64,000 nt of DNA from Herbiconiux sp. SALV-R1 (GTDB lineage Bacteria > Actinomycetota > Actinomycetes > Actinomycetales > Microbacteriaceae), in contig NZ_CP053344.1 in NCBI RefSeq assembly GCF_013113715.1, positions 1,178,001-1,242,000 of the forward strand. Direction: 5' to 3'. Of the stretch, positions 49,447-60,735 are shown piece by piece. Below the pieces are notes generated by a model that ran no database searches, was not told the DNA's origin, and saw nothing but the letters and a program-made list of their open reading frames with translations. Every line of letters begins with the position of its first letter. The first letter of the stretch is position 1. A program made the translations under genes and the position numbers.

Positions 49447-50241
49447 TCAGGCGGCGATGCCCCGCGCGTCGAGCGAGTCCTGCACGATCGTGAGGCCCGA
49501 CAGCCCCGGCATCTTGGCGATGTGGGCGTCGATCTTCGCGGCCTCCTTGCGGCCCTCCGGCCCGCCCATGATGTGCCCCATCACGTGCTTGACCTCCTCG
49601 TCGCTCATGATCGTGGAACCGACGGGGCCCCAGAAGTTCTTGAGCGCGAAGCGGGCGAAGACCTGGGCCTTCTTGCTCTTCTCCAGCCGCTCCCTGGCCT
49701 GCGTGGCGTAGAAGGCGACGTGACGTGACTCCTGCTTGGCGATGCGCTTGAGCAGTTCGGCGAGCACGGGGTGCTTCTCGAGGGCGGCGAGCCGGTTGTA
49801 GGCGGCGACGGCCGACCACTCGTTCGCGGCACCCCAGATCATGTGCACGGCGATGAACCCCGAGCCCACGATGTTGCCGAGCAGCGACTGCTTCACCGGG
49901 TCGAGCCGGTCTTTCCAGCCGAGCTTCAGACGGGTGGCTTTGAGCTCGTCGAAGTCGACGATCACGTCGTGCTCGGCGAGCACGGCGGCCAGGGCCTCGC
50001 CGTGCCAGAACTCCTCGCGGTTCCACATGGTCATGAAGGCGGTGACGTCTTCGTCCTTGTGCGAGGGGGTGACCAGCATGTCGCGGAGGTAGCAGACGGT
50101 GTGGTACTCGACGTCGCACATGTAGCGGAGGCTGCGCAGCGTGCCCTCGGGCAGCGGCTCGTCGCGGAAGACGGAGAAGTCGAGGTCTTGCCAGGCGACC
50201 TTGGTGGAGGTCTCGGTGTACTTGTCGATGTCGAATGCCAT
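49447..50241 (-). CDS. ferritin-like diiron protein with acyl-ACP-desaturase-type ligands
   Basis: A 264-residue helical protein. The six ligands of a desaturase-type diiron centre can be read off: Glu45; Glu77 and His80 (EEFWHGEA); Glu141; Glu171 and His174 (ESRHVAFY). This is the E, ExxH, E, ExxH order of soluble stearoyl-ACP desaturases. It is shorter than plant-type desaturases and may oxidise a lipid-linked chain. It sits 14 bases after the acyl reductase/HAD gene in the leftward arm of the ether-lipid cluster, with a degenerate paralogue two genes upstream. Possible activities: chain desaturation, or formation of a vinyl ether. Neither is shown. No strong ribosome site precedes its ATG. 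Confidence 0.82.
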   Translation of the reverse strand: MAFDIDKYTETSTKVAWQDLDFSVFRDEPLPEGTLRSLRYMCDVEYHTVCYLRDMLVTPSHKDEDVTAFMTMWNREEFWHGEALAAVLAEHDVIVDFDELKATRLKLGWKDRLDPVKQSLLGNIVGSGFIAVHMIWGAANEWSAVAAYNRLAALEKHPVLAELLKRIAKQESRHVAFYATQARERLEKSKKAQVFARFALKNFWGPVGSTIMSDEEVKHVMGHIMGGPEGRKEAAKIDAHIAKMPGLSGLTIVQDSLDARGIAA

Positions 50242-50255
50242 GAGAGTCTCGGTCG

Positions 50256-52625
50256 TCAGCGCGGGTCGCTGCCGCTCGACCGACCTCCTTCCTCGGATGC
50301 CTCGGGTTCGGCGGGCTTGTGCTTGTCGCTCAGCACCGCCAGGTTAGCGGGGAGCACCTGACGATCGGATGAGCGTCTGGTCCAGTCCTCGACCGTCCAC
50401 TTGGTGCGCTGGGCGTGCCGGTAGAGCTCGGTGTCGGGGTTCACCACGGTGGCGTTGCCCACCAGTTGCAGCCAGGCCACGTCGGCGAGCGAGTCGCCGT
50501 AGCCGTACGACTGGGTGAGGTTCGCCCCGTGCTTGTCGGCGTACTCGCGCAGCCACGCGGCGCGGGCCTCGTCGACCAGCGGGGGAGTGGCGAGGTAGCC
50601 GGTCATCACGCCCTTCGAGGCGTGCATCTCGCCGGCGACGATCTCGTCGAAGTACGGGGCGAACGGCTCGGCCGCCGAGCGGGTGGCGCCGGTGACGAGA
50701 ACCGTGCGATGACCTGCCGCGCGGTGCTGCGCGACCCGGTCGAGCGCATCCGGAATCGCCCGCCCGAGCATCGCCGCACCGAACTGGCCCTTCACGAGGC
50801 GCTGCAGCTCGTCGACGCGGATGCCGCGGTATCGGCGCACCAGCGTGCGGATGAACTCGCCCCGGTCGCGGTGGTCGACCCGCAGGTACTTCGGCACGTT
50901 GAGCATGAGCGAGGCGAACTCCTGCGGCCACTGCGCCTTCGGGATGAGCGCGAGGCGCACCCAGAGGTACTGCTCGACCAGGTTCGACTCCACCACGGTG
51001 CCCTCGAAGTCGAACACCGCGAGCACGTCGCTGCGCACGGGCAGCGCACGCTTGGCGCGGGCGCGGCCGGCCGGGCGGTTGGCGTAGGCCTTGGTGAGCC
51101 CGGTGATCGAGGGGAAGTGCGTGTTCTGGAAGTAGTCGTGCCAGTCGATGTCGACGACGTCGAAGCCGCGGTCGGCCTTGAGCTCGGCCGGGATGGAGTT
51201 GTGCAGCGCCAGCGCGTTGCGGTCGTCGAAGATGAGCTCGGTCTGCACGTAGGCGCGGTAGAGCTCGGCGAAGTAGCGCAGCTGCTGGAGGCCCCGCTGG
51301 CGCTGGTGGAGGGTCTGCGTCCAGGCCCGGGTGCGGGTGGTGGAGGGCATGCGCGCCACCGCGCTGTCGGCGGCGTCGGCGAGACGCTCCTGCAGGCGGA
51401 GCGTGCGCTCGACCGAGCGACCGCCCGGGAAGCGCCACGAAGGCACCTGGATGGGGCCGTCGTCGTGCGGCATGGGGTTCTTGGTGAAGAACTCCTTGAC
51501 GTTCTCGTACATGGAGTGGAAGGGCAGCGGGTTCCGCGCGCCCGAGACCACCTGGTAGTAGTTCGGCTCGTCGACGGGCGCCGGGGTGACCGCGGCGGCG
51601 AGGATGGCGTTCACCACGAAGTCGACCGGGATGACGTCGAGGATGGAGTCGGGAACACCCGGGAACTCGGGGAGCTGCCCGCGGCCGTAGGCCATGATGA
51701 GCGGGTCGGCGACCTTGAAGCCGTCGAGCCAGCCCGGCACCGGGTGGCGCAGCGCGCTCTCGATGATCGAGGGGCGCACGATCGACAGGCGGTGCCCCGC
51801 GGTGCCCCACAGCTCCTCGGCTGCGCGCTCGGCGAAGGCCTTGGTGAGGGTGTAGACGTCAGTCCAGCCGAGCGACTCGGCACGGATGCGGCCGTGCTCG
51901 ACCAGTCGCTTGGTGACCCATTCGATGCGGGCCGCCTCCGCATCCTGAGCGACGGCCTGCGGGCCCACCTTGCCGAGCTTCGAGCGCGACTCGGCGAGCA
52001 GCTTCTTCAGCACCTCGGGCTGGCGCGAGGCCATCTCGACGCGGCGGCGGGCCGACTTCGCGGCGGCGTTCTCGGCGCGCCAGTCGATCTCGTGGGCGAG
52101 CGGGGCCTCGAGCGAGACGCCCTTGCGCATGCCCGCGACGTAGGCGGTGGAGACGTGCACGACGTGCGGGTCGCTGCCGGAGGCGAGGAGGGCTCCGTAG
52201 ATGCCGGTGGCGCCGTCGACGTTGGTCTGGAAGGCCTCGTCGATGGGCGGGTCGAAGGAGACCGTGGAGGCGGAGTGGATGACTACGTCGATGTCACCGG
52301 GCAGCTCGCCCGGGTTCGCGAGGTCGCCCTGGATGACGCTGAGACGTTCGCGCACCGCGCGCTCGACCTCCGCCTCACCGACCGTCTCGCGCCAGGTCTT
52401 GAACACGGGCTTCTTCAGCAGCGTCTGCAGGCGAGCCTCACCCGTGGTGCGCGACTTCGGCCTGATGAGGAGCGAGACTCGCGTGTCGGGGTGGGTGGAG
52501 AGCAGGCGCTCGAGGACGGCCTGGCCCACGAAGCCGGTGCCGCCGGTGAGCAGCACGTGCGAGGAGCCGAGGGTGAAGTCGGGGTTCGCGGGCTGCGTCT
52601 CGGTGCTCGGGGTGGTCTCGGTCAT
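50256..52625 (-). CDS. fatty acyl reductase fused to a HAD-type phosphatase
   Basis: A 789-residue fusion. Residues ~20-480 are an NAD(P)-dependent fatty acyl-CoA reductase: TGGTGFVG at 27-34, VSTAYVAG, and the catalytic tyrosine-lysine in VYTLTKAF. Residues ~530-750 form a HAD phosphatase: motif I is DFEGT with Asp539 and a Glu at 541 instead of the usual second Asp, then TGAT, a lysine in SKG and GYGDSLAD. The first half would give a fatty alcohol. The HAD part could remove a phosphate from a lipid precursor. The start overlaps the upstream paralogue gene by four bases and the intact diiron gene follows after 14 bases, so all three are one unit. Confidence 0.9.
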   Translation of the reverse strand: MTETTPSTETQPANPDFTLGSSHVLLTGGTGFVGQAVLERLLSTHPDTRVSLLIRPKSRTTGEARLQTLLKKPVFKTWRETVGEAEVERAVRERLSVIQGDLANPGELPGDIDVVIHSASTVSFDPPIDEAFQTNVDGATGIYGALLASGSDPHVVHVSTAYVAGMRKGVSLEAPLAHEIDWRAENAAAKSARRRVEMASRQPEVLKKLLAESRSKLGKVGPQAVAQDAEAARIEWVTKRLVEHGRIRAESLGWTDVYTLTKAFAERAAEELWGTAGHRLSIVRPSIIESALRHPVPGWLDGFKVADPLIMAYGRGQLPEFPGVPDSILDVIPVDFVVNAILAAAVTPAPVDEPNYYQVVSGARNPLPFHSMYENVKEFFTKNPMPHDDGPIQVPSWRFPGGRSVERTLRLQERLADAADSAVARMPSTTRTRAWTQTLHQRQRGLQQLRYFAELYRAYVQTELIFDDRNALALHNSIPAELKADRGFDVVDIDWHDYFQNTHFPSITGLTKAYANRPAGRARAKRALPVRSDVLAVFDFEGTVVESNLVEQYLWVRLALIPKAQWPQEFASLMLNVPKYLRVDHRDRGEFIRTLVRRYRGIRVDELQRLVKGQFGAAMLGRAIPDALDRVAQHRAAGHRTVLVTGATRSAAEPFAPYFDEIVAGEMHASKGVMTGYLATPPLVDEARAAWLREYADKHGANLTQSYGYGDSLADVAWLQLVGNATVVNPDTELYRHAQRTKWTVEDWTRRSSDRQVLPANLAVLSDKHKPAEPEASEEGGRSSGSDPR

Positions 52626-53554
52626 CCGTGCGTTCTGCCTTCTGTGGGGGTCGTGGTGGAGGGTTTCGCCGCACCCGGTCGGAGAGCGTGCACGACGCCC
52701 GCCGCGCGGCGGCCGAGCCGCCTGGCGAAGGCGCCCGCCCGGCCCGCCGGGTCGAGTGCCGTCGACCTGGCGTCTCGCACGAGGTGCAGGGGGTCGAGGC
52801 CGGGGAGCTCGCGCACCCTGGTGTCGACCTCCTCGGCGAGGGAGGCGTCGAAGAGGTGTTCGTAGAAGAAGCGGGTCTCGGATGCCGCGAGGCTCGAGGC
52901 GCCGATCGGCCACTGGATGCGGGGGAGGCCACGCCGGGCGAGCGCTCGCGCCCCCTTCGACTCGCCGAGCCGGCGCTCGGAGTCGGCCTCGACGAACTCG
53001 CGGTGCCTCGCCTTCACCGTCTGCACGCGTTCGAGCAGAGCGAGGAGGGCCGGATGCGGGTCGGACTCCGCCAGGCGTCGGTACGCGGCCTCGGTGATCC
53101 ATTCGTCGACCCCCACCGAGGTGAGATGGAGGGCGATGACGTCGGTGCCGATGGAGTTCGCGCGGAACGACTCGACGATGGGGGTCGCGCGCTCGGCGAC
53201 CTCGAGCAGGAAGGAGCGCACCCGGGGCAGCTCCTGCGTGGTGAGGAGGTCGTGGCCGTGGGCGGTGACGATCTGCTCGAAGGCGTCGGCGATCCAGTAC
53301 TTCTCGAAGGCCCAGGTGGTGAGGAAGGCGGTGACCCGCGCATCCTTGTGCGTGGGGGTGACGAGCACGTTGCGGAGGTAGGTCATGGTCGAGCGCTCGA
53401 GCTCGCGGGCGTAGGCCAGCAGCCGCACCGTCTCGGGGCGCAGCGGAGTCGCCGTGAGGGCGTCGAAGTCGATCTCGGAGCGGTGGCTGCCGACTGCCGT
53501 GCGAGCGAAGTCGCGCACGTCGAACCGGGCCCCTGCAGGCTCGTCGACGTTCAT
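52622..53554 (-). CDS. degenerate ferritin-like paralogue of the diiron protein
   Basis: A 310-residue protein that aligns well with the diiron protein downstream (shared LVTPTHKD, EWITEAAYRRLA, ARH). Of six metal ligands, three are changed: the positions of Glu77, His80 and Glu171 are Lys85, Ile88 and Lys181, while Glu53, Glu151 and His184 are kept. So a standard diiron centre is unlikely. It has an extra C-terminal tail of ~40 basic residues. It may be a regulatory or partner subunit of the intact protein. The ATG at 53554 follows GGAGAG and is the first gene of the leftward arm. An upstream in-frame start would overlap the promoter. Confidence 0.8.
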   Translation of the reverse strand: MNVDEPAGARFDVRDFARTAVGSHRSEIDFDALTATPLRPETVRLLAYARELERSTMTYLRNVLVTPTHKDARVTAFLTTWAFEKYWIADAFEQIVTAHGHDLLTTQELPRVRSFLLEVAERATPIVESFRANSIGTDVIALHLTSVGVDEWITEAAYRRLAESDPHPALLALLERVQTVKARHREFVEADSERRLGESKGARALARRGLPRIQWPIGASSLAASETRFFYEHLFDASLAEEVDTRVRELPGLDPLHLVRDARSTALDPAGRAGAFARRLGRRAAGVVHALRPGAAKPSTTTPTEGRTHG

Positions 53555-53628
53555 CGTGTGCTCTCCGGACAAACGCGGGTCCCTTCGCGGCGCGGCGTAC
53601 AAGGTGGGTGTGTGAGTGCGCTCGTCTG

Positions 53629-53649
53629 ACGCTACGCACTCCGTAGCGT
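53629..53649. promoter_or_regulatory. 21-bp inverted repeat between the two arms of the lipid cluster
   Basis: ACGCTACG and CGTAGCGT are perfect reverse complements around the five bases CACTC. The last base of the repeat is the first of the likely -10 box of the rightward arm (TATCCT, 53649-53654), and the repeat also lies in the leftward promoter region. This is the size and symmetry of a TetR-family operator. One of the two TetR genes 3.4-4.8 kb away is a possible binder. Confidence 0.75.
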
Positions 53650-53654
53650 ATCCT
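53649..53654 (+). promoter_or_regulatory. -10 box of the rightward lipid arm
   Basis: TATCCT ends seven bases before the ATG of the dehydrogenase at 53662, the spacing of leaderless promoters seen elsewhere in the window. It overlaps the end of the inverted repeat, so a bound repressor would block it. Confidence 0.6.
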
Positions 53655-53661
53655 AAGCATC

Positions 53662-54504
53662 ATGGTGACGGCTCTGGTGACCGGTGGCACGTCCGGGATC
53701 GGCGCCTCGTTCGCGCGGGCCCTGGCGCTGCGCGGATACGACCTCGTGCTCGTGGCACGCGACGAGAAGCGACTCGGCGAGATGGCCGACGAACTGCGGG
53801 CGGAGGGCGTCTCGAGCGTCGAGACGATCTCGGCCGACCTCTCGGTGCGCGCCGACATCGACCGGGTCGCCGAGCGGCTCGAGAGCACCGAGAGCCCCAT
53901 CGACTTCCTGGTGAACAACGCGGGCTTCGGCATCCACGGCTCGCTGCTCGAGCGCGACGTGAGCATCCACGAGCGGGCCCTCGACGTGATGTGCCTCGCC
54001 GTGCTCGTGCTGGGCGGCGCCGCAGGGCGGTCGATGAAGGCCAGGCGCCGCGGCACCATCCTCAACGTCTCGAGCGTGGCGGGCACGATCGCCACCGGCA
54101 ACTACTCCGCGGTCAAGGCCTGGACCACCGCCTACACCGAGGGTCTCGCCGTCGAGCTCAAGGGCACGGGCGTGCAGGTGTCGGCGGTGCTGCCCGGCTG
54201 GGTGCGCACCGAGTTCCACGAGCGGGCCGGCATCCGCACCCGCTCCATCCCGAACGTGCTCTGGCTCGACGCCGACGACCTCGTCGCCGAGGCCCTCCAC
54301 GACGTCGCGCGCGGCGCGGTGCTCTCGGTTCCCAGCAAGCGCTTCAAGGTGCTCTTCTTCTTCACCCGGCATCTGCCGCGCCGGGTCATCCGGTACATCT
54401 CGGGGCGCATCTCCTCGAGCCGCAACAAACCGGCCGAACCCTCGGCCGCGAACACAGGATCGGGGTCGGGAGTGCAGCAGTCGTCAGCGGAGGTGAAGCG
54501 GTGA
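53662..54504 (+). CDS. short-chain dehydrogenase of the ether-lipid cluster
   Basis: A 280-residue short-chain dehydrogenase with TGGTSGIGASFA at the N-terminus, VNNAGFG near residue 88, and the catalytic serine, tyrosine and lysine (NVSSVAGT; NYSAVKAW). The C-terminal FFFTRHLPRRVIRYI resembles the membrane-associated end of acyl-DHAP reductase-like proteins and the 17-beta-HSD type. By context it would reduce the ketone of alkyl-DHAP to alkyl-glycerol-3-phosphate. Its stop overlaps the acyltransferase start by four bases. The start codon is probably leaderless. Confidence 0.88.
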   Translation: MVTALVTGGTSGIGASFARALALRGYDLVLVARDEKRLGEMADELRAEGVSSVETISADLSVRADIDRVAERLESTESPIDFLVNNAGFGIHGSLLERDVSIHERALDVMCLAVLVLGGAAGRSMKARRRGTILNVSSVAGTIATGNYSAVKAWTTAYTEGLAVELKGTGVQVSAVLPGWVRTEFHERAGIRTRSIPNVLWLDADDLVAEALHDVARGAVLSVPSKRFKVLFFFTRHLPRRVIRYISGRISSSRNKPAEPSAANTGSGSGVQQSSAEVKR

Positions 54505-55310
54505 GCGAGAAGCACCACGGCGAGGAGTCGCACGGCGAGGAGTCGCACGGCGAGAAGCACCACGGCCTGATCGCCCCGCCGAAAGACCGGTTCACCTCGG
54601 GCACGATGGCCGCGATGCGCTTCGTGGCCCAGCGGATGCTGCTGAAGCCGGTGGTGTGGTCGATCACCCGCGTCACCGTGCGCGGGCACGAGGCGGTCAA
54701 GGGCGTGAAGGGCGCGTTCATCGTGGTGGCGAACCACTCCAGCCACCTCGACGCCCCGCTCATCATGTGCGGCCTGCCGCGCCGTCTCGGCCGCTATCTC
54801 GCCGCCGGTGCCGCCGCCGACTACTTCTTCGACATCTGGTGGCGGCGCATCCTCACCGCCCTGTTCTTCAACGCGTTCCCCATCGACCGCACCGGCACCG
54901 CCGCCCGCCAGGGCGTGTCGAAGAAGCTGCTGGGCCGCGGGGTGCCGCTGCTGGTGTTCCCCGAGGGCACGCGCTCGAAGACCGGCGAGATGGCCTCGTT
55001 CAAGGCAGGGGCGGCCGCGCTGTCGATCTCGTGCGACGTTCCGTGCGTGCCGGTCGCGCTCGTCGGTGCGAGCCTCGCCATGCCCCGCGGCCGCAACTGG
55101 CCCATCCCCGGCCGGCCGCCCGTGGCCGTCATCTTCGGCGAGCCCATGCTCGGGCTCCCCGGCGAGACGCCCGACCAGTTCTCCGCCCGCATCCAGCGCG
55201 AGGTGCGGCGCCTCCACTCCACCGCAGCGGCCAGCGACGAGATCCCGGCGCTGCCGGTGATCGGCCAGAAGTCGTCGCAGAGCAGAACCATCTCGAAGGG
55301 AGCCGCATGA
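54501..55310 (+). CDS. PlsC-type acyltransferase with a histidine-rich N-terminus
   Basis: A 269-residue protein. Residues ~50-250 are a PlsC/LPLAT domain with the catalytic NHSSHLD (His79, Asp84) and FPEGTRSKTG near residues 153-162. In this operon it would acylate DHAP to acyl-DHAP, the substrate of the next enzyme; acylation of glycerol-3-phosphate or lysophosphatidate is the alternative. The N-terminal 22 residues contain eight histidines and many glutamates, encoded by a 15-bp repeat of 2.7 copies, which may bind metal. The GTG at 54501 overlaps the upstream stop and its own stop overlaps the next ATG. Confidence 0.9.
   Translation: MSEKHHGEESHGEESHGEKHHGLIAPPKDRFTSGTMAAMRFVAQRMLLKPVVWSITRVTVRGHEAVKGVKGAFIVVANHSSHLDAPLIMCGLPRRLGRYLAAGAAADYFFDIWWRRILTALFFNAFPIDRTGTAARQGVSKKLLGRGVPLLVFPEGTRSKTGEMASFKAGAAALSISCDVPCVPVALVGASLAMPRGRNWPIPGRPPVAVIFGEPMLGLPGETPDQFSARIQREVRRLHSTAAASDEIPALPVIGQKSSQSRTISKGAA
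54516..54557. repeat. 15-bp repeat encoding the histidine-rich start of the acyltransferase
   Basis: CACGGCGAGGAGTCG is repeated at 54516-54530 and 54531-54545 and partly again from 54546. The unit keeps frame and encodes HGEES, giving the metal-binding-like N-terminus. Confidence 0.8.
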
Positions 55311-57046
55311 CCGACGTCAAGCACATGAAGTGGTGGGGCTGGGGCCTCGAGGGCGTCGGCTTCCACCACGAGGACAAGCCCGCCTTCGCGCCGTTCGTGA
55401 AGAAGGCGGTGGCGCTCGACCTCTCGGTGCCGCCGGAGGCGCCGATCTCCTTCGACCAGCTCACCGTCGCGCCGCCGCGCCTGTCGCCGGCGTTCGAGGC
55501 CGAGCTCGTCGCCATCGTCGGCGAGGACAACGCGCACACCACCGACGAGTCGCGCGTGGTGCACGCCTACGGCAAGTCGATCCGCGACCTGCTGCGCATC
55601 CGCCGCAACGAGATCGCACGGGTTCCCGACATCGTGGTGTACCCGGGCGACGAGTGGGACGTGCAGCAGATCGTCGACGCCGCCGTCGCCGCGAACGCCG
55701 TCATCATCCCGTTCGGCGGGGGCTCGAACATCGCCGGCAGCCTCGAGCCGCTGGCCGACGAGACGCGCACGGTCGTGTCGCTCGACCTCGGGCGCCTGAA
55801 CCGCGTGCTCGACATCGACGAGGGCTCGGGCCTCGCGCGCATCCAGGCGGGAACCCAGGGCCCTGACATGGAGGAGCAGCTGAACGCCAAGGGCTGGACG
55901 ATGGGGCACTTCCCCGACTCGTTCACCCACTCGACGCTCGGCGGCTGGGTGGCCACCCGCTCCTCCGGCATGCAGAGCGACAAGTACGGCGACATCGCCG
56001 ACATCACCCGGGGCCTCCGCATGGTGCGCCCCGGCGAGATCGTCGAGCTGCGGCCGCTGCCGTCGACCTCGACGGGGCCGTCGGTGCGCGAGATGATCAT
56101 CGGCTCGGAGGGGCGCCTCGGCGTCATCACCGAGGTCACCGTGCAGGTGCACCGCCAGCCCGCGGTGCGCGAGGTGCAGGCCTACTTCTTCCCGAACTGG
56201 GACGCCGGGCTCGCCGCCATGCACGAGATCTCGGAGTCGGATGCGTCGCCGTCGATCACCCGTGTCTCCGACGCCAGGGAGAGCGGCTTCTCGCTGGCCA
56301 CCCGCAAGGCGTCGAAGGGCATCTCGGGTGCTGCGCAGAACGTGCTCATGTCGGTGCTGAAGCGCCGCGGCTGGGTGCTGGAAGACATGTGCTTGTCGTT
56401 CATCGGCTACGAGGGCAGCGAGTCGCACGTGGCGTACGAGAAGAAGCTCGTCGGCGCCATCGTGAAGAAGCACGGCGGGCTCGGGGTCGGCAAGGGCCCC
56501 GGCGCGCTCTACGACCAGAAGAAGTTCGACACGCCCTACCTGCGCGACTTCCTGCTCGACCGGGGCGCCGCCGCCGACGTGTCGGAGACGGCGGCGCCGT
56601 GGTCGCGCCTGCACGAGGTGTACGACACGACGGTCGCCGCCGCGAACGCCGCCTACGACGCGCTCGGGGTGCACGGCTGGATCATGTGCCACCTCTCGCA
56701 CTCCTACCACTCGGGTGCCTGCCTCTACTTCACCTTCGCCTTCGTGTACGGCGACGACCCGATCGGTCAGTACGAGGTGGTGAAGAAGTCGATCCAGCAG
56801 GCGTTCCAGGATGCCGGCGGCACGCTCTCGCACCACCACGGCGTCGGTGTGGAGCACTCGCCGTGGATGGAGCAGGACATCTCCGCCGGCGGCGTCGCCC
56901 TCATGCAGGGGCTGTTCGACTCCGCCGACCCGAAGGGCCTGTTCAACCCGGGCAAGGTGCTCGGCACGGTGCAGCTCACGGCTGACGACGTGGCGGAGCT
57001 CGTGGCGGAGGCCCCGCGCGCCGCGGCGCCGGCGCCGGTGGAGTAG
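55307..57046 (+). CDS. alkyldihydroxyacetonephosphate synthase (AGPS family)
   Basis: A 579-residue FAD enzyme closely following the order of alkyl-DHAP synthase. Residues ~90-290 are the FAD-binding PCMH domain (IPFGGGSNIAG, GHFPDSFTHSTLGGWVATRSSGMQSDKYGDI, IMGSEGRLGVITE), and the C-terminal cap contains HSYHSGACLYFTFAF and GGTLSHHHGVG with His509-511, the signature of this family. It replaces the acyl chain of acyl-DHAP by a fatty alcohol, making the ether bond. A 45-residue N-terminal extension is present. The preceding acyltransferase and a fatty alcohol source (acyl reductase) on the other arm make the role convincing. The ATG overlaps the upstream stop. Confidence 0.93.
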   Translation: MTDVKHMKWWGWGLEGVGFHHEDKPAFAPFVKKAVALDLSVPPEAPISFDQLTVAPPRLSPAFEAELVAIVGEDNAHTTDESRVVHAYGKSIRDLLRIRRNEIARVPDIVVYPGDEWDVQQIVDAAVAANAVIIPFGGGSNIAGSLEPLADETRTVVSLDLGRLNRVLDIDEGSGLARIQAGTQGPDMEEQLNAKGWTMGHFPDSFTHSTLGGWVATRSSGMQSDKYGDIADITRGLRMVRPGEIVELRPLPSTSTGPSVREMIIGSEGRLGVITEVTVQVHRQPAVREVQAYFFPNWDAGLAAMHEISESDASPSITRVSDARESGFSLATRKASKGISGAAQNVLMSVLKRRGWVLEDMCLSFIGYEGSESHVAYEKKLVGAIVKKHGGLGVGKGPGALYDQKKFDTPYLRDFLLDRGAAADVSETAAPWSRLHEVYDTTVAAANAAYDALGVHGWIMCHLSHSYHSGACLYFTFAFVYGDDPIGQYEVVKKSIQQAFQDAGGTLSHHHGVGVEHSPWMEQDISAGGVALMQGLFDSADPKGLFNPGKVLGTVQLTADDVAELVAEAPRAAAPAPVE

Positions 57047-57050
57047 GGAG

Positions 57051-57662
57051 CTACTCAGCCGGCGGGGTGAGGGCGGGCCAGAGCAGCGTGAGCAGCCGGT
57101 CGGCCCACTCCTCGTCGGGCTCGCCGCCGCGGATGACGTGGCCGACCGCCGCACCCAGCAGCACGCTCACGGTGAGCTTCACGTCGAGGCCCTGACGCAG
57201 GTCGCCGCGCGCCACCGCCTCGTCGAGGAACGCGACGAGCTGGTGGCTGCGGTGCCTGATCATCACCCGCAGCTGCTCGGTGAACTGCCCGTCGTCGTCG
57301 ATCAGGATGGCGGCGACCGTCCCGCGCCCCACGATGTCCTGCACCCTCACCCGTGCCGCGCCCAGCAGCCAGTGCAGGGTGTCATAGGTCGACATGCCCT
57401 CGGGCAGCGTCACCTCGGTGGTGGCGGCGTCGATGGCGGCGACGATGAGGGCGTCGCGGTCGGCGTAGCGCCGGTAGATCGTCGTCTTCGCGACTCCGGA
57501 TGCTGCGGCCACCGCCTCCACGTTCACCCCGGCCGGCCCGCGGTCGCGCAGCAGCTGCAGGGTCGCGGCCACGATGCGCTCGTCGGCGCCGGGTCTGTCC
57601 TCCGCGGGCCTGTCCTCCGCCCCGTCGGGGTGATCGGCATCGTGCACGGACATGCTGCCCAT
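57051..57662 (-). CDS. TetR-family regulator downstream of the lipid cluster
   Basis: A 203-residue TetR-family protein. The helix-turn-helix is VNVEAVAAASGVAKTTIYRRYADRDAL at residues ~37-65. It faces the alkyl-DHAP synthase gene tail to tail with four bases between. It is a possible repressor of the cluster, because no other regulator lies closer. The ATG at 57662 or one at 57653 may be the start; ribosome sites are poor for both. Ligand unknown. Confidence 0.88.
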   Translation of the reverse strand: MGSMSVHDADHPDGAEDRPAEDRPGADERIVAATLQLLRDRGPAGVNVEAVAAASGVAKTTIYRRYADRDALIVAAIDAATTEVTLPEGMSTYDTLHWLLGAARVRVQDIVGRGTVAAILIDDDGQFTEQLRVMIRHRSHQLVAFLDEAVARGDLRQGLDVKLTVSVLLGAAVGHVIRGGEPDEEWADRLLTLLWPALTPPAE

Positions 57663-58575: not shown

Positions 58576-60735
58576 TCACTGGGCGTCGGCGATGGCGTTC
58601 AGCACCAGCACGGCGGAGTCGTTCGCGCCGATGGCGTACTCGTTCGTCTCGTCCTCGGCGCACAGCTGGCCGGTGGCGATCTCCTCGATCTCGTCGACCA
58701 GCGACCGCACCGAACGCAGCTCACCCTGGAGCGTCGCCGCCGAGACGTTGCGCGAGGCCTGCAGCTCGGTGAGGGAGTCGCTCAGCTGCTCGCGGTCGGC
58801 GAGGGCGATGGCGGCGTCGGAGAGGGCGCGGTCGCGCTCGTCGGCGAGCACGCCGATCTCGCTGCGTGCGTCGGCCAGCTCGCGCTCGAGCGCCGCGATG
58901 TCGGGGGAGGTGGCGCTCGCCGCGCCGTTCGGGCCCTGAGCGCTCGCCGCTTCGCGGGCTTCCGCGAGCTCGTGCTCGAGCTCGGCGACGCGGGCTCGCG
59001 CCTCGAGCAGCTCGAGGTCGCCGCCGAAGGCCTCGGGGTCGGCGGCCGCGCCGGCCGATCGCTCGCGCTCGAGCTCGGCGACGCGGGCTCGGGCCGCCTC
59101 GAGCTCGGCCGGGTCGCCCGCCGACGCGAGGGCATCGGCGAGCTCCGACTCGAGCTGGGCCACCCGGGCCTCGGCCGCGTCGAGCGCCGTCGTGTCTGCG
59201 GCGGCGCGGTGCGCCTCGGCGAGTTCGATCTCGAGTTCGGCGACGCGGGCTGCCGCGGCCGCCTCGGCGGCCTCGCCCCCGCCCACCGACTCGCTGGCGC
59301 CGAGTCGCGCCTCGGCGAGTTCCGCCTCGAGCACGGCGACCCTGGCCTCCGCCTCCTCGAGTGCCGCGGTGTCGGAGGCCGCGGCCCGCGCCTCGGCGAG
59401 CTCGGCCTCCAGCTCGGCCACCCGGGCGTCGTGGGCCGCCTCGGCCTCCTGGGCCGCGCCGAGCTCGCTCTCGAGCTCGGCGACGCGGGTGCGGGCGGCG
59501 GTGAGCGCGTCATCGCCGTCGGCGGCCTCGGCGGCCTCGGCGGTGATGGCGGCGAGGGCTGCGGCGTGCTCGGCGCGCAGCTGATCGCTGCGGGCGTCGC
59601 TGTCGGCGAGGGCCGCGCGGTGCTCGGCGCCGAGCTGCTCGGCGAGCTGCTCCCGCTCGGCGAGGGCGGCGAGGTGGTCGGACTCGAGCTGGGCGCGCTC
59701 GGCGGCGAGCCGCTCGATCTCGCTCTGCGACGCCTGGCGCTGCTCCTCGGCGGCGGCGGCGGCCGCGCTCCGCAGCTGGTCGACCTCGGCGGCATGGGCG
59801 GCCTGCAGCTGCTCGATCTCGGCGGCGTGGGCGGCGCGCAGCTGCTCCAGCTCAGCCGCGTGCGAGGCCTGGAGCTGTTCATCGTGGGCGCGCAGCGCAT
59901 CCGATTCGCTGGCGTGCCCGGCCCGCAGCTGCTCGGTCTCGGTCTGGTGGGCAAACCGCAGCTCGTCGAGCTGGGTCTGGTGGGCGGTCGACATCTGCTC
60001 GAGCTGGGCCGCGTGCGAGGCGGAGAGCTGCTCGAGCTGGGCCGCGTGCGAGCTGGAGAGCTGCTCGAGCTGGGCCGCGTGGGCGGCGTGCAGCCCGGCG
60101 ACCTGGTTCTCGTAGCCCGCAACGGTGGCCTGCTGCTCCTGGGTGAGCCGGGTCGTGGTGTCGGCGAGCTGGGTCTGCAGCGCTCCGGTCTCGGCGGCCA
60201 GCTGGGCGGTGAGCGCGCCGGTCTGTGCGGCGAGTTCCGCCTGCATCCGTGCCGTCTCGTCGGCGAGCTGCGCGCGCAGGGCGTTGGTCTCGCCGATCAG
60301 GCGTTCGTGAAGGGCGGCGAGCTCGGCCTCGCGCTGCGCGAGGGTCGCCGCGGTCGAGTCGAGGCGCGCCTGGGTGTCTTCGTAGCGGGCGGTCATCTCG
60401 GTGAGGCGGTCGCGGGTGGCGGCGAGCTCGCGCTCGGCGTCGAGGCGGGCGGTGTCGCGCAGGCGCCGGTCGTCGATGACGAGACCGAGCTGCGAGCGGA
60501 TGATCTCGAGCGGGTCGTCGTCGCCCTCCACCTCTTCGGCGGGGACGATCTCGGGCGCCTCGTAGGCGGGGTGCGCGGTGGGGTCGATGAAGTGGTGACG
60601 GTACAGCTCGTCGACGATCGCCTCGTAGCGCTCGCGGAACTCGGGGGTGCCGATCTTGAGCGAGGCGCCCACGAAGGCCAGCGCGGTGCGGTCGCGCCGG
60701 CTCAGGGTGTATTCGGTCGTGGTGGCGTCGGACAT
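58576..60735 (-). CDS. long coiled-coil protein with hendecad repeats
   Basis: A 719-residue, acidic, alanine/glutamate-rich protein. The first ~85 residues are globular (TALAFVGASLKIGTPEFRERYEAIVDELYRHHFID). Residues ~90-640 are an almost continuous coiled coil. One part consists of about ten 11-residue repeats like SHAAQLEQLSA, AHQTETEQLRA, AHAAEIEQLQA. Another has ~25-35 residue repeats with ARVAELEAELAEA. The last ~80 residues are again non-repetitive. No membrane segment. Such length suggests a cytoskeletal or cell-pole scaffold or a structural chromosome protein; no family match is certain. TAACCT (60801-60796, minus strand) may be its -10 box. Confidence 0.85.
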   Translation of the reverse strand: MSDATTTEYTLSRRDRTALAFVGASLKIGTPEFRERYEAIVDELYRHHFIDPTAHPAYEAPEIVPAEEVEGDDDPLEIIRSQLGLVIDDRRLRDTARLDAERELAATRDRLTEMTARYEDTQARLDSTAATLAQREAELAALHERLIGETNALRAQLADETARMQAELAAQTGALTAQLAAETGALQTQLADTTTRLTQEQQATVAGYENQVAGLHAAHAAQLEQLSSSHAAQLEQLSASHAAQLEQMSTAHQTQLDELRFAHQTETEQLRAGHASESDALRAHDEQLQASHAAELEQLRAAHAAEIEQLQAAHAAEVDQLRSAAAAAAEEQRQASQSEIERLAAERAQLESDHLAALAEREQLAEQLGAEHRAALADSDARSDQLRAEHAAALAAITAEAAEAADGDDALTAARTRVAELESELGAAQEAEAAHDARVAELEAELAEARAAASDTAALEEAEARVAVLEAELAEARLGASESVGGGEAAEAAAAARVAELEIELAEAHRAAADTTALDAAEARVAQLESELADALASAGDPAELEAARARVAELERERSAGAAADPEAFGGDLELLEARARVAELEHELAEAREAASAQGPNGAASATSPDIAALERELADARSEIGVLADERDRALSDAAIALADREQLSDSLTELQASRNVSAATLQGELRSVRSLVDEIEEIATGQLCAEDETNEYAIGANDSAVLVLNAIADAQ

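Follow-up and report, generated by a model that had tools for sequence, protein, structure and literature searches.

We analysed a window of 64,000 nucleotides from Herbiconiux sp. SALV-R1 (contig NZ_CP053344.1, positions 1,178,001 to 1,242,000), in which two divergent operons at 49447-57046 very probably specify an oxygen-compatible ether-lipid pathway of the animal and myxobacterial type. The plus-strand operon carries genes for a short-chain dehydrogenase/reductase (SDR), a PlsC-type acyltransferase (PlsC) and an alkyl-dihydroxyacetone phosphate (alkyl-DHAP) synthase (AGPS). The minus-strand operon carries D2, a fatty acyl reductase fused to a HAD domain (FAR/HAD) and D1, where D1 and D2 are ferritin-like proteins. 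Association and elimination together suggest D1 as the vinyl-ether desaturase, an assignment to which we give a little less than an even chance. The full explanation, in which the ether-lipid pathway is joined by vinyl-ether formation through D1, a partner role of D2 and control by a TetR protein, stands in our judgement evenly balanced. The initial annotation had described a divergent cluster made of these parts, and we found each of them in place, with the SHHHGVG motif located in AGPS. The genes are tightly packed, with 4-base overlaps at D2/FAR, SDR/PlsC and PlsC/AGPS and a spacing of 14 bases from FAR/HAD to D1. Chance open reading frames were ruled out by conserved motifs and gene order.

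We deduced every reaction of the scheme, above all that of D1, from gene content, motifs, predicted folds, conservation, gene association and the null results for CarF and the PlsA marker. FAR would provide a fatty alcohol, PlsC would acylate DHAP and AGPS would exchange the acyl group for the fatty alcohol; SDR would reduce the ketone and ordinary phospholipid enzymes would complete the lipid. Most likely, D1 would act as a soluble diiron oxidase that uses O2 to dehydrogenate the alkyl chain at C1'/C2', giving the vinyl ether. D2, where present, may be a metal-free partner of D1. Control of both operons probably falls to a TetR repressor acting at the central palindrome.

We examined the identity of AGPS by comparison with solved alkyl-DHAP synthases, 2uuu (E 2.3e-117) and 4bby (E 2.9e-86), which we take to be from Dictyostelium and guinea pig respectively. 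Its SHHHGVG aligned with the motif of both structures, and SHHH was kept in 69/69 homologues; the motif counts given here and below cover part of the fetched loci, some from the same genome, and matches with at least 40% identity and good coverage. By this clear match AGPS is an alkyl-DHAP synthase, and ether formation is predicted. The flavoprotein superfamily is broad and glycolate-oxidase models match AGPS too, which would suit another FAD oxidase in a set of genes for fatty-alcohol or wax-ester metabolism, without ether lipid. We consider this highly improbable: the next oxidase came far behind at E 6.5e-23 (in round figures, 7e-23 against 2e-117 for the alkyl-DHAP synthases), SHHHGVG is kept and the gene belongs to the overlapping SDR-PlsC-AGPS series. 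The glycolate-oxidase or wax-ester reading was thus rejected on the E-value gap.

The other enzymes gave similar results. FAR/HAD matched PF07993 (NAD_binding_4) with E 1.7e-49 and the solved fatty acyl-CoA reductase 7eoz with E 4.4e-50, and its Tyr-x3-Lys was kept in all 73 homologues. Its C-terminal end is a HAD-IB domain in which the second catalytic Asp has become Glu in 73/78 homologues and Gln in 3, with Asp kept in 2, leaving phosphatase activity of this domain uncertain. The SDR Tyr/Lys pair was kept in 72/72 homologues and the PlsC HX4D motif in 75/75. FAR, AGPS, PlsC and SDR thus appear, with good support from sequence and conservation, to be the kinds of enzyme that build ether lipids from DHAP, as in the route first proposed (FAR, AGPS, acyltransferase and ketone reductase); the assignment of each to its step is presumptive.

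D1 has all six diiron ligands, which were kept in 109/109 sequences. Its predicted model (pLDDT 85.5) gave DesA2 (1za0) as best Foldseek match with E 6.5e-4, followed by plant acyl-ACP desaturases, with a TM-score of up to 0.65 on the query. The likeness is modest (root mean square deviation 8 to 10), with R2lox and ribonucleotide reductase (RNR) R2 folds close behind, and for these reasons the fold does not identify the reaction. D1 of the window fell below the curated PF03405 cut-off (20.7 against 22.7 bits), and its relatives gave weak matches to the same family in 29/29 cases (best E 1.1e-5). An NCBIfam search yielded no name for D1 or D2, and a search of a viral fold library gave nothing informative.

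For homology between D2 and D1 hhalign gave a probability of 100, and in a tree of 78 D2 and 104 D1 sequences all D2 fell in one clade with support 1.0. The metal site of D2 was strongly altered: among 82 sequences, K stands in place of E77 in 81 and K or R in place of E171 in 80, while H80 has given way to I, V, L, M or F in all 82. Judged by these residues, D2 cannot hold the usual diiron site. The initial hint that only one of the two ferritin-like proteins is intact thus holds, with ligands kept in D1 and replaced in D2. Such Lys or Lys/Arg substitutions recall the metal-free class Ie RNR R2 proteins. In the fold search the predicted D2 model (pLDDT 89.7) matched R2lox and acyl-ACP desaturases, in each case weakly (best E 6.4e-3), and class Ie RNR R2 (8bt3) was likewise a weak match. 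When a D2 profile was searched in 11 genomes, D1 itself was the sole match in 9 of them (six Jiangella, Haloactinopolyspora, Actinopolymorpha and the metagenome-assembled genome (MAG) L115), which ruled out an obligate D1/D2 pair.

Lipid data come from the available portions of the cited papers. The Subtercola dimethylacetals mentioned in the initial annotation are indeed in print: saturated and mostly iso/anteiso, they make up ~22% in Subtercola vilae, ~26.5% in S. frigoramans, ~29% in S. boreus and ~21% in S. lobariae (PMC5945732; sums of table rows, traces left out). The unit was present in the genomes of S. vilae (same strain as in the lipid analysis), S. boreus (strains other than the analysed type strain) and S. 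lobariae. Agreia, which also carries the unit (L102, L104, L105 and L112), has little dimethylacetal (4% or less) according to the text of that paper but 'not detected' in its table (PMC5945732). For Frigoribacterium adelgis D8, C14:0 2OH is reported together with anteiso-15:0 aldehyde/dimethylacetal (PMC12823222), and we found the unit in two Frigoribacterium MAGs (L090 and L094). In aerobic Kineococcus a peak labelled C14:0 2OH proved by gas chromatography-mass spectrometry to be the anteiso-15:0 dimethylacetal (PMC7472656), and the unit fits the argument made there that a dimethylacetal can be misread as a 'C14:0 2-OH' peak. With Subtercola (PMC5945732) and Kineococcus (PMC7472656) as aerobic actinobacteria with reported dimethylacetals, the unit offers a concrete candidate gene set for this chemistry. 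Our literature search found no lipid data for Herbiconiux sp. SALV-R1, and among the matches listed from the open-licence literature no publication connected diiron proteins of this kind with plasmalogens.

We then looked for the known vinyl-ether enzymes. A profile search for the CarF family (PF10520, Lipid_desat) gave no match in the Herbiconiux genome and none in 199 Microbacteriaceae genomes, a set which appears to include S. vilae; as a control, the same profile gave matches in 18/396 genomes across the phylum, which belong to two other families. The earlier claim of independence from CarF is supported by this search for homologues, which had been proposed with it. The PlsA marker PF09989 was absent from 6/6 genomes (Herbiconiux, three Subtercola, Agreia bicolorata and Jiangella muralis), this marker being the one PlsA domain searched, and it matched 4/14 control genomes. 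With both controls working, CarF or PlsA elsewhere in the genome was rejected as an explanation. Since neither the CarF family nor the PlsA marker was found, some other enzyme is the probable source of the vinyl ether in S. vilae. Inspection of eight PF10520 stretches showed adjoining AGPS and FAR genes in L177 only, a contig of 6 kb whose binning may be wrong, and CarF next to AGPS as a rule was thereby excluded.

We further analysed the spread of the unit. Among the named loci (the best 80 of 285 D1 matches, unit genes being counted at 40% identity or more), 63 had all six genes together. In the 199 family genomes, D1 matches (E 0.001) were detected in 64, 59 of them close orthologues, and close AGPS and FAR/HAD in 55 and 56 genomes respectively. 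Close D1 and AGPS occurred together in 53 genomes, D1 only in 6, AGPS only in 2 and neither in 138; the six include a genome with D1 at a contig end (G107) and the two a fragmented assembly that retains D2 (G113). Kinship of the genomes inflates this co-occurrence, and its Fisher value is not a fair probability. For this reason better evidence comes from unlinked genes: D1 stands apart from AGPS and FAR, yet in the same genome, in 6/6 Jiangella and in Naasia (the order of the genes was read in Naasia and in three of the Jiangella). Similarly, genome G442, from another family of the order, has D2 and D1 adjacent at one site and a FAR/SDR/PlsC/AGPS divergon at another. Outside the family, 18/20 class genomes with close D1 carried close AGPS. 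The unit is present in Phytoactinopolyspora halotolerans and rearranged in P. alkaliphila. All six genes, arranged as in the window, were also found on the 2.35 Mb linear plasmid of Streptomyces sp. NBC_01450 (NZ_CP109481.1, 1064753-1085541), the only D1 match among 72,556 plasmid records; this full and identically arranged set points to transfer of the unit as a block.

Several observations, in addition to the modest fold likeness and the kinship of the genomes, weigh against desaturation of the ether by D1. Agromyces allii, A. terreus, Leifsonia flava and Leifsonia sp. Leaf264 have D1 and D2 but gave no AGPS or FAR match at E 1e-30. In Haloactinopolyspora and the L115 MAG, D1 and FAR are present and AGPS is missing, and distant D1 (37-55% identity) stands without other unit genes in 10 stretches. 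Conversely, AGPS units lack D1 in genomes G101, G237 and G423, and 15 of the 33 class genomes outside the family with close AGPS have no close D1; 13 of these 15 belong to one genus, with AGPS at 59-61%, and in the one inspected locus of such genomes (L163) AGPS stands without other unit genes. As D1 and AGPS occur apart in these cases, the claim that D1 acts solely on the AGPS product is limited. On the lipid side, three ordinary branched acids account for ~94% in Salinibacterium metalliresistens (PMC10713820, in its available part), whose genome was not checked for the unit, and the available part of PMC10011130 makes no mention of dimethylacetals for Herbiconiux. Finally, our survey for O2-activating candidates was confined to the unit, where D1 alone was recognised.

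These exceptions, together with the nearness of the predicted D1 fold to acyl-ACP desaturases, would suit a unit that makes saturated alkyl ethers, D1 (with D2) being an acyl-ACP/CoA desaturase, a hydroxylase or similar and the Subtercola vinyl ether being made by another enzyme; retention of D1 without AGPS/FAR in the four named genomes and its solitary state in the 10 distant loci speak for it. We hold this possible but somewhat less likely than desaturation of the ether by D1, since the dimethylacetal chains of Subtercola are saturated, with a-15:1 a trace at most in the available part of PMC5945732, and close D1 accompanies the AGPS/FAR genes even when unlinked. A further complication is that a LarA homologue (PF09861, lactate racemase) and a second PlsC lie inside the unit of Subtercola and Labedella (e.g. 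L075:7564-9099) and could matter. They stand between FAR/HAD and D1 in 8/8 Subtercola loci (L074, L075, L076, L078, L080, L081, L082 and L101), including species with reported dimethylacetals (PMC5945732). Further loci with both are L034, L038, L039, L057, L115, L130, L131 and L148. In some Jiangellales-type loci the pair adjoins FAR/HAD or D1, and in Haloactinopolyspora and the L115 MAG FAR/HAD is accompanied by a LarA homologue and PlsC, as in Subtercola and Labedella; the L115 MAG also has a gene for a Ni-insertion protein and a LarE-like gene nearby. Dependence of a Subtercola-like vinyl ether on these two proteins in place of D1 nevertheless seems very unlikely, as Agreia and Frigoribacterium, with dimethylacetals in print (PMC5945732, PMC12823222, available parts), gave no LarA match in the unit stretches examined.

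The initial annotation had suggested that the diiron protein may make the vinyl ether. The D1/AGPS association and the elimination of CarF and PlsA speak for this, and D1 without AGPS/FAR, AGPS units that lack D1 and distant D1 standing alone speak against it. In its widest form, the proposal is that D1 may be a soluble ferritin-like plasmanyl 1'-desaturase, evolved apart from CarF/PEDS1 and working with a metal-free, lysine-filled D2 in Microbacteriaceae, that would explain aerobic actinobacterial dimethylacetals, in a pathway mobile between orders as a unit; we advance it tentatively, a shade more so than the assignment of D1 by itself.

The closest parallel is found in Myxococcus xanthus, with MXAN_1676-1674, elbA-E and CarF, where AGPS, FAR-like, acyltransferase, NAD-dependent reductase and HAD parts are common to both systems, as are aerobic life and branched chains (PMC9131029, available part). 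The myxobacterial parallel drawn at the outset thus applies to the AGPS-type gene set and stops at CarF: Herbiconiux gave no CarF-family match and has two ferritin-like proteins instead. In addition, the FAR fusion partner is HAD in Herbiconiux but an acyltransferase in M. xanthus, and divergent operons with a TetR site distinguish the former, as far as that source goes. The enzyme types for the alkyl ether are also those of the animal peroxisomal pathway (FAR1, GNPAT, AGPS, alkyl-DHAP reductase and PEDS1). PEDS1/CarF is a membrane histidine-motif protein, unrelated to D1, whose motifs are of the soluble carboxylate-bridged type. D1 has the six-ligand pattern of acyl-ACP desaturases (DesA2 1za0, castor desaturase), and its predicted fold comes nearest to theirs, with R2lox and RNR R2 close behind; it differs by its PF03405 score and its ether-lipid gene context. 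Anaerobic PlsA/PlsR synthesis would yield the same product class if the unit makes vinyl ethers, but it reduces diacyl lipids without O2 and its marker was not found in Herbiconiux. CarF is reported from myxobacteria, a few Leptospira and Alphaproteobacteria, and aerobic bacterial plasmalogens are described as a myxobacterial exception (PMC9131029, available part). Were D1 the desaturase, O2-dependent formation of vinyl ethers would have at least two separate origins, and the reaction could be had from a small soluble enzyme.

The divergent promoter region contains a palindrome that was the only perfect match within the window. The gap could be measured in 64 named loci. Of these, 28/28 loci with a convergent TetR gene adjoining AGPS had the palindrome core (one mismatch at most), as did 2 of the 36 others, both of which end at a contig edge before the TetR position. 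Subtercola and Agreia loci have no such site. As the palindrome core tracks the convergent TetR gene, the TetR protein is the likely regulator of the unit in the palindrome-bearing genera.

Table 1. Features of the ether-lipid unit and its surroundings (window coordinates)
Feature	Position	Strand	Evidence
D1, soluble six-ligand diiron protein, acyl-ACP-desaturase-like predicted fold; candidate O2-dependent desaturase	49447-50241	-	ligand conservation, model, Foldseek
Fatty acyl reductase (NAD_binding_4, Sterile) fused to HAD-IB domain	50256-52625	-	Pfam, 7eoz match, Tyr/Lys kept
D2, D1 paralogue, metal site replaced	52622-53554	-	sequence comparison; no Pfam match
Divergent promoter region, 107-base gap between D2 and SDR starts	53555-53661	.	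gene starts
Perfect palindrome ACGCTACG-N5-CGTAGCGT, probable TetR operator (predicted)	53629-53649	.	inside divergent promoter region
SDR, probable acyl/alkyl-DHAP reductase	53662-54504	+	adh_short E 5e-39; Tyr/Lys kept
PlsC-type acyltransferase, GTG start, probable DHAP acyltransferase	54501-55310	+	PF01553 E 5e-23; HX4D kept
AGPS, alkyl-DHAP synthase (by sequence match)	55307-57046	+	2uuu/4bby matches; SHHH kept
TetR-family regulator, convergent with AGPS, probable repressor of unit (predicted)	57051-57662	-	PF00440 and PF16859; co-occurs with palindrome

Past the TetR genes, the minus strand at 58576-60735 encodes a protein of 719 aa with long repeats that are rich in Ala, Glu and Gln and resemble coiled coils.

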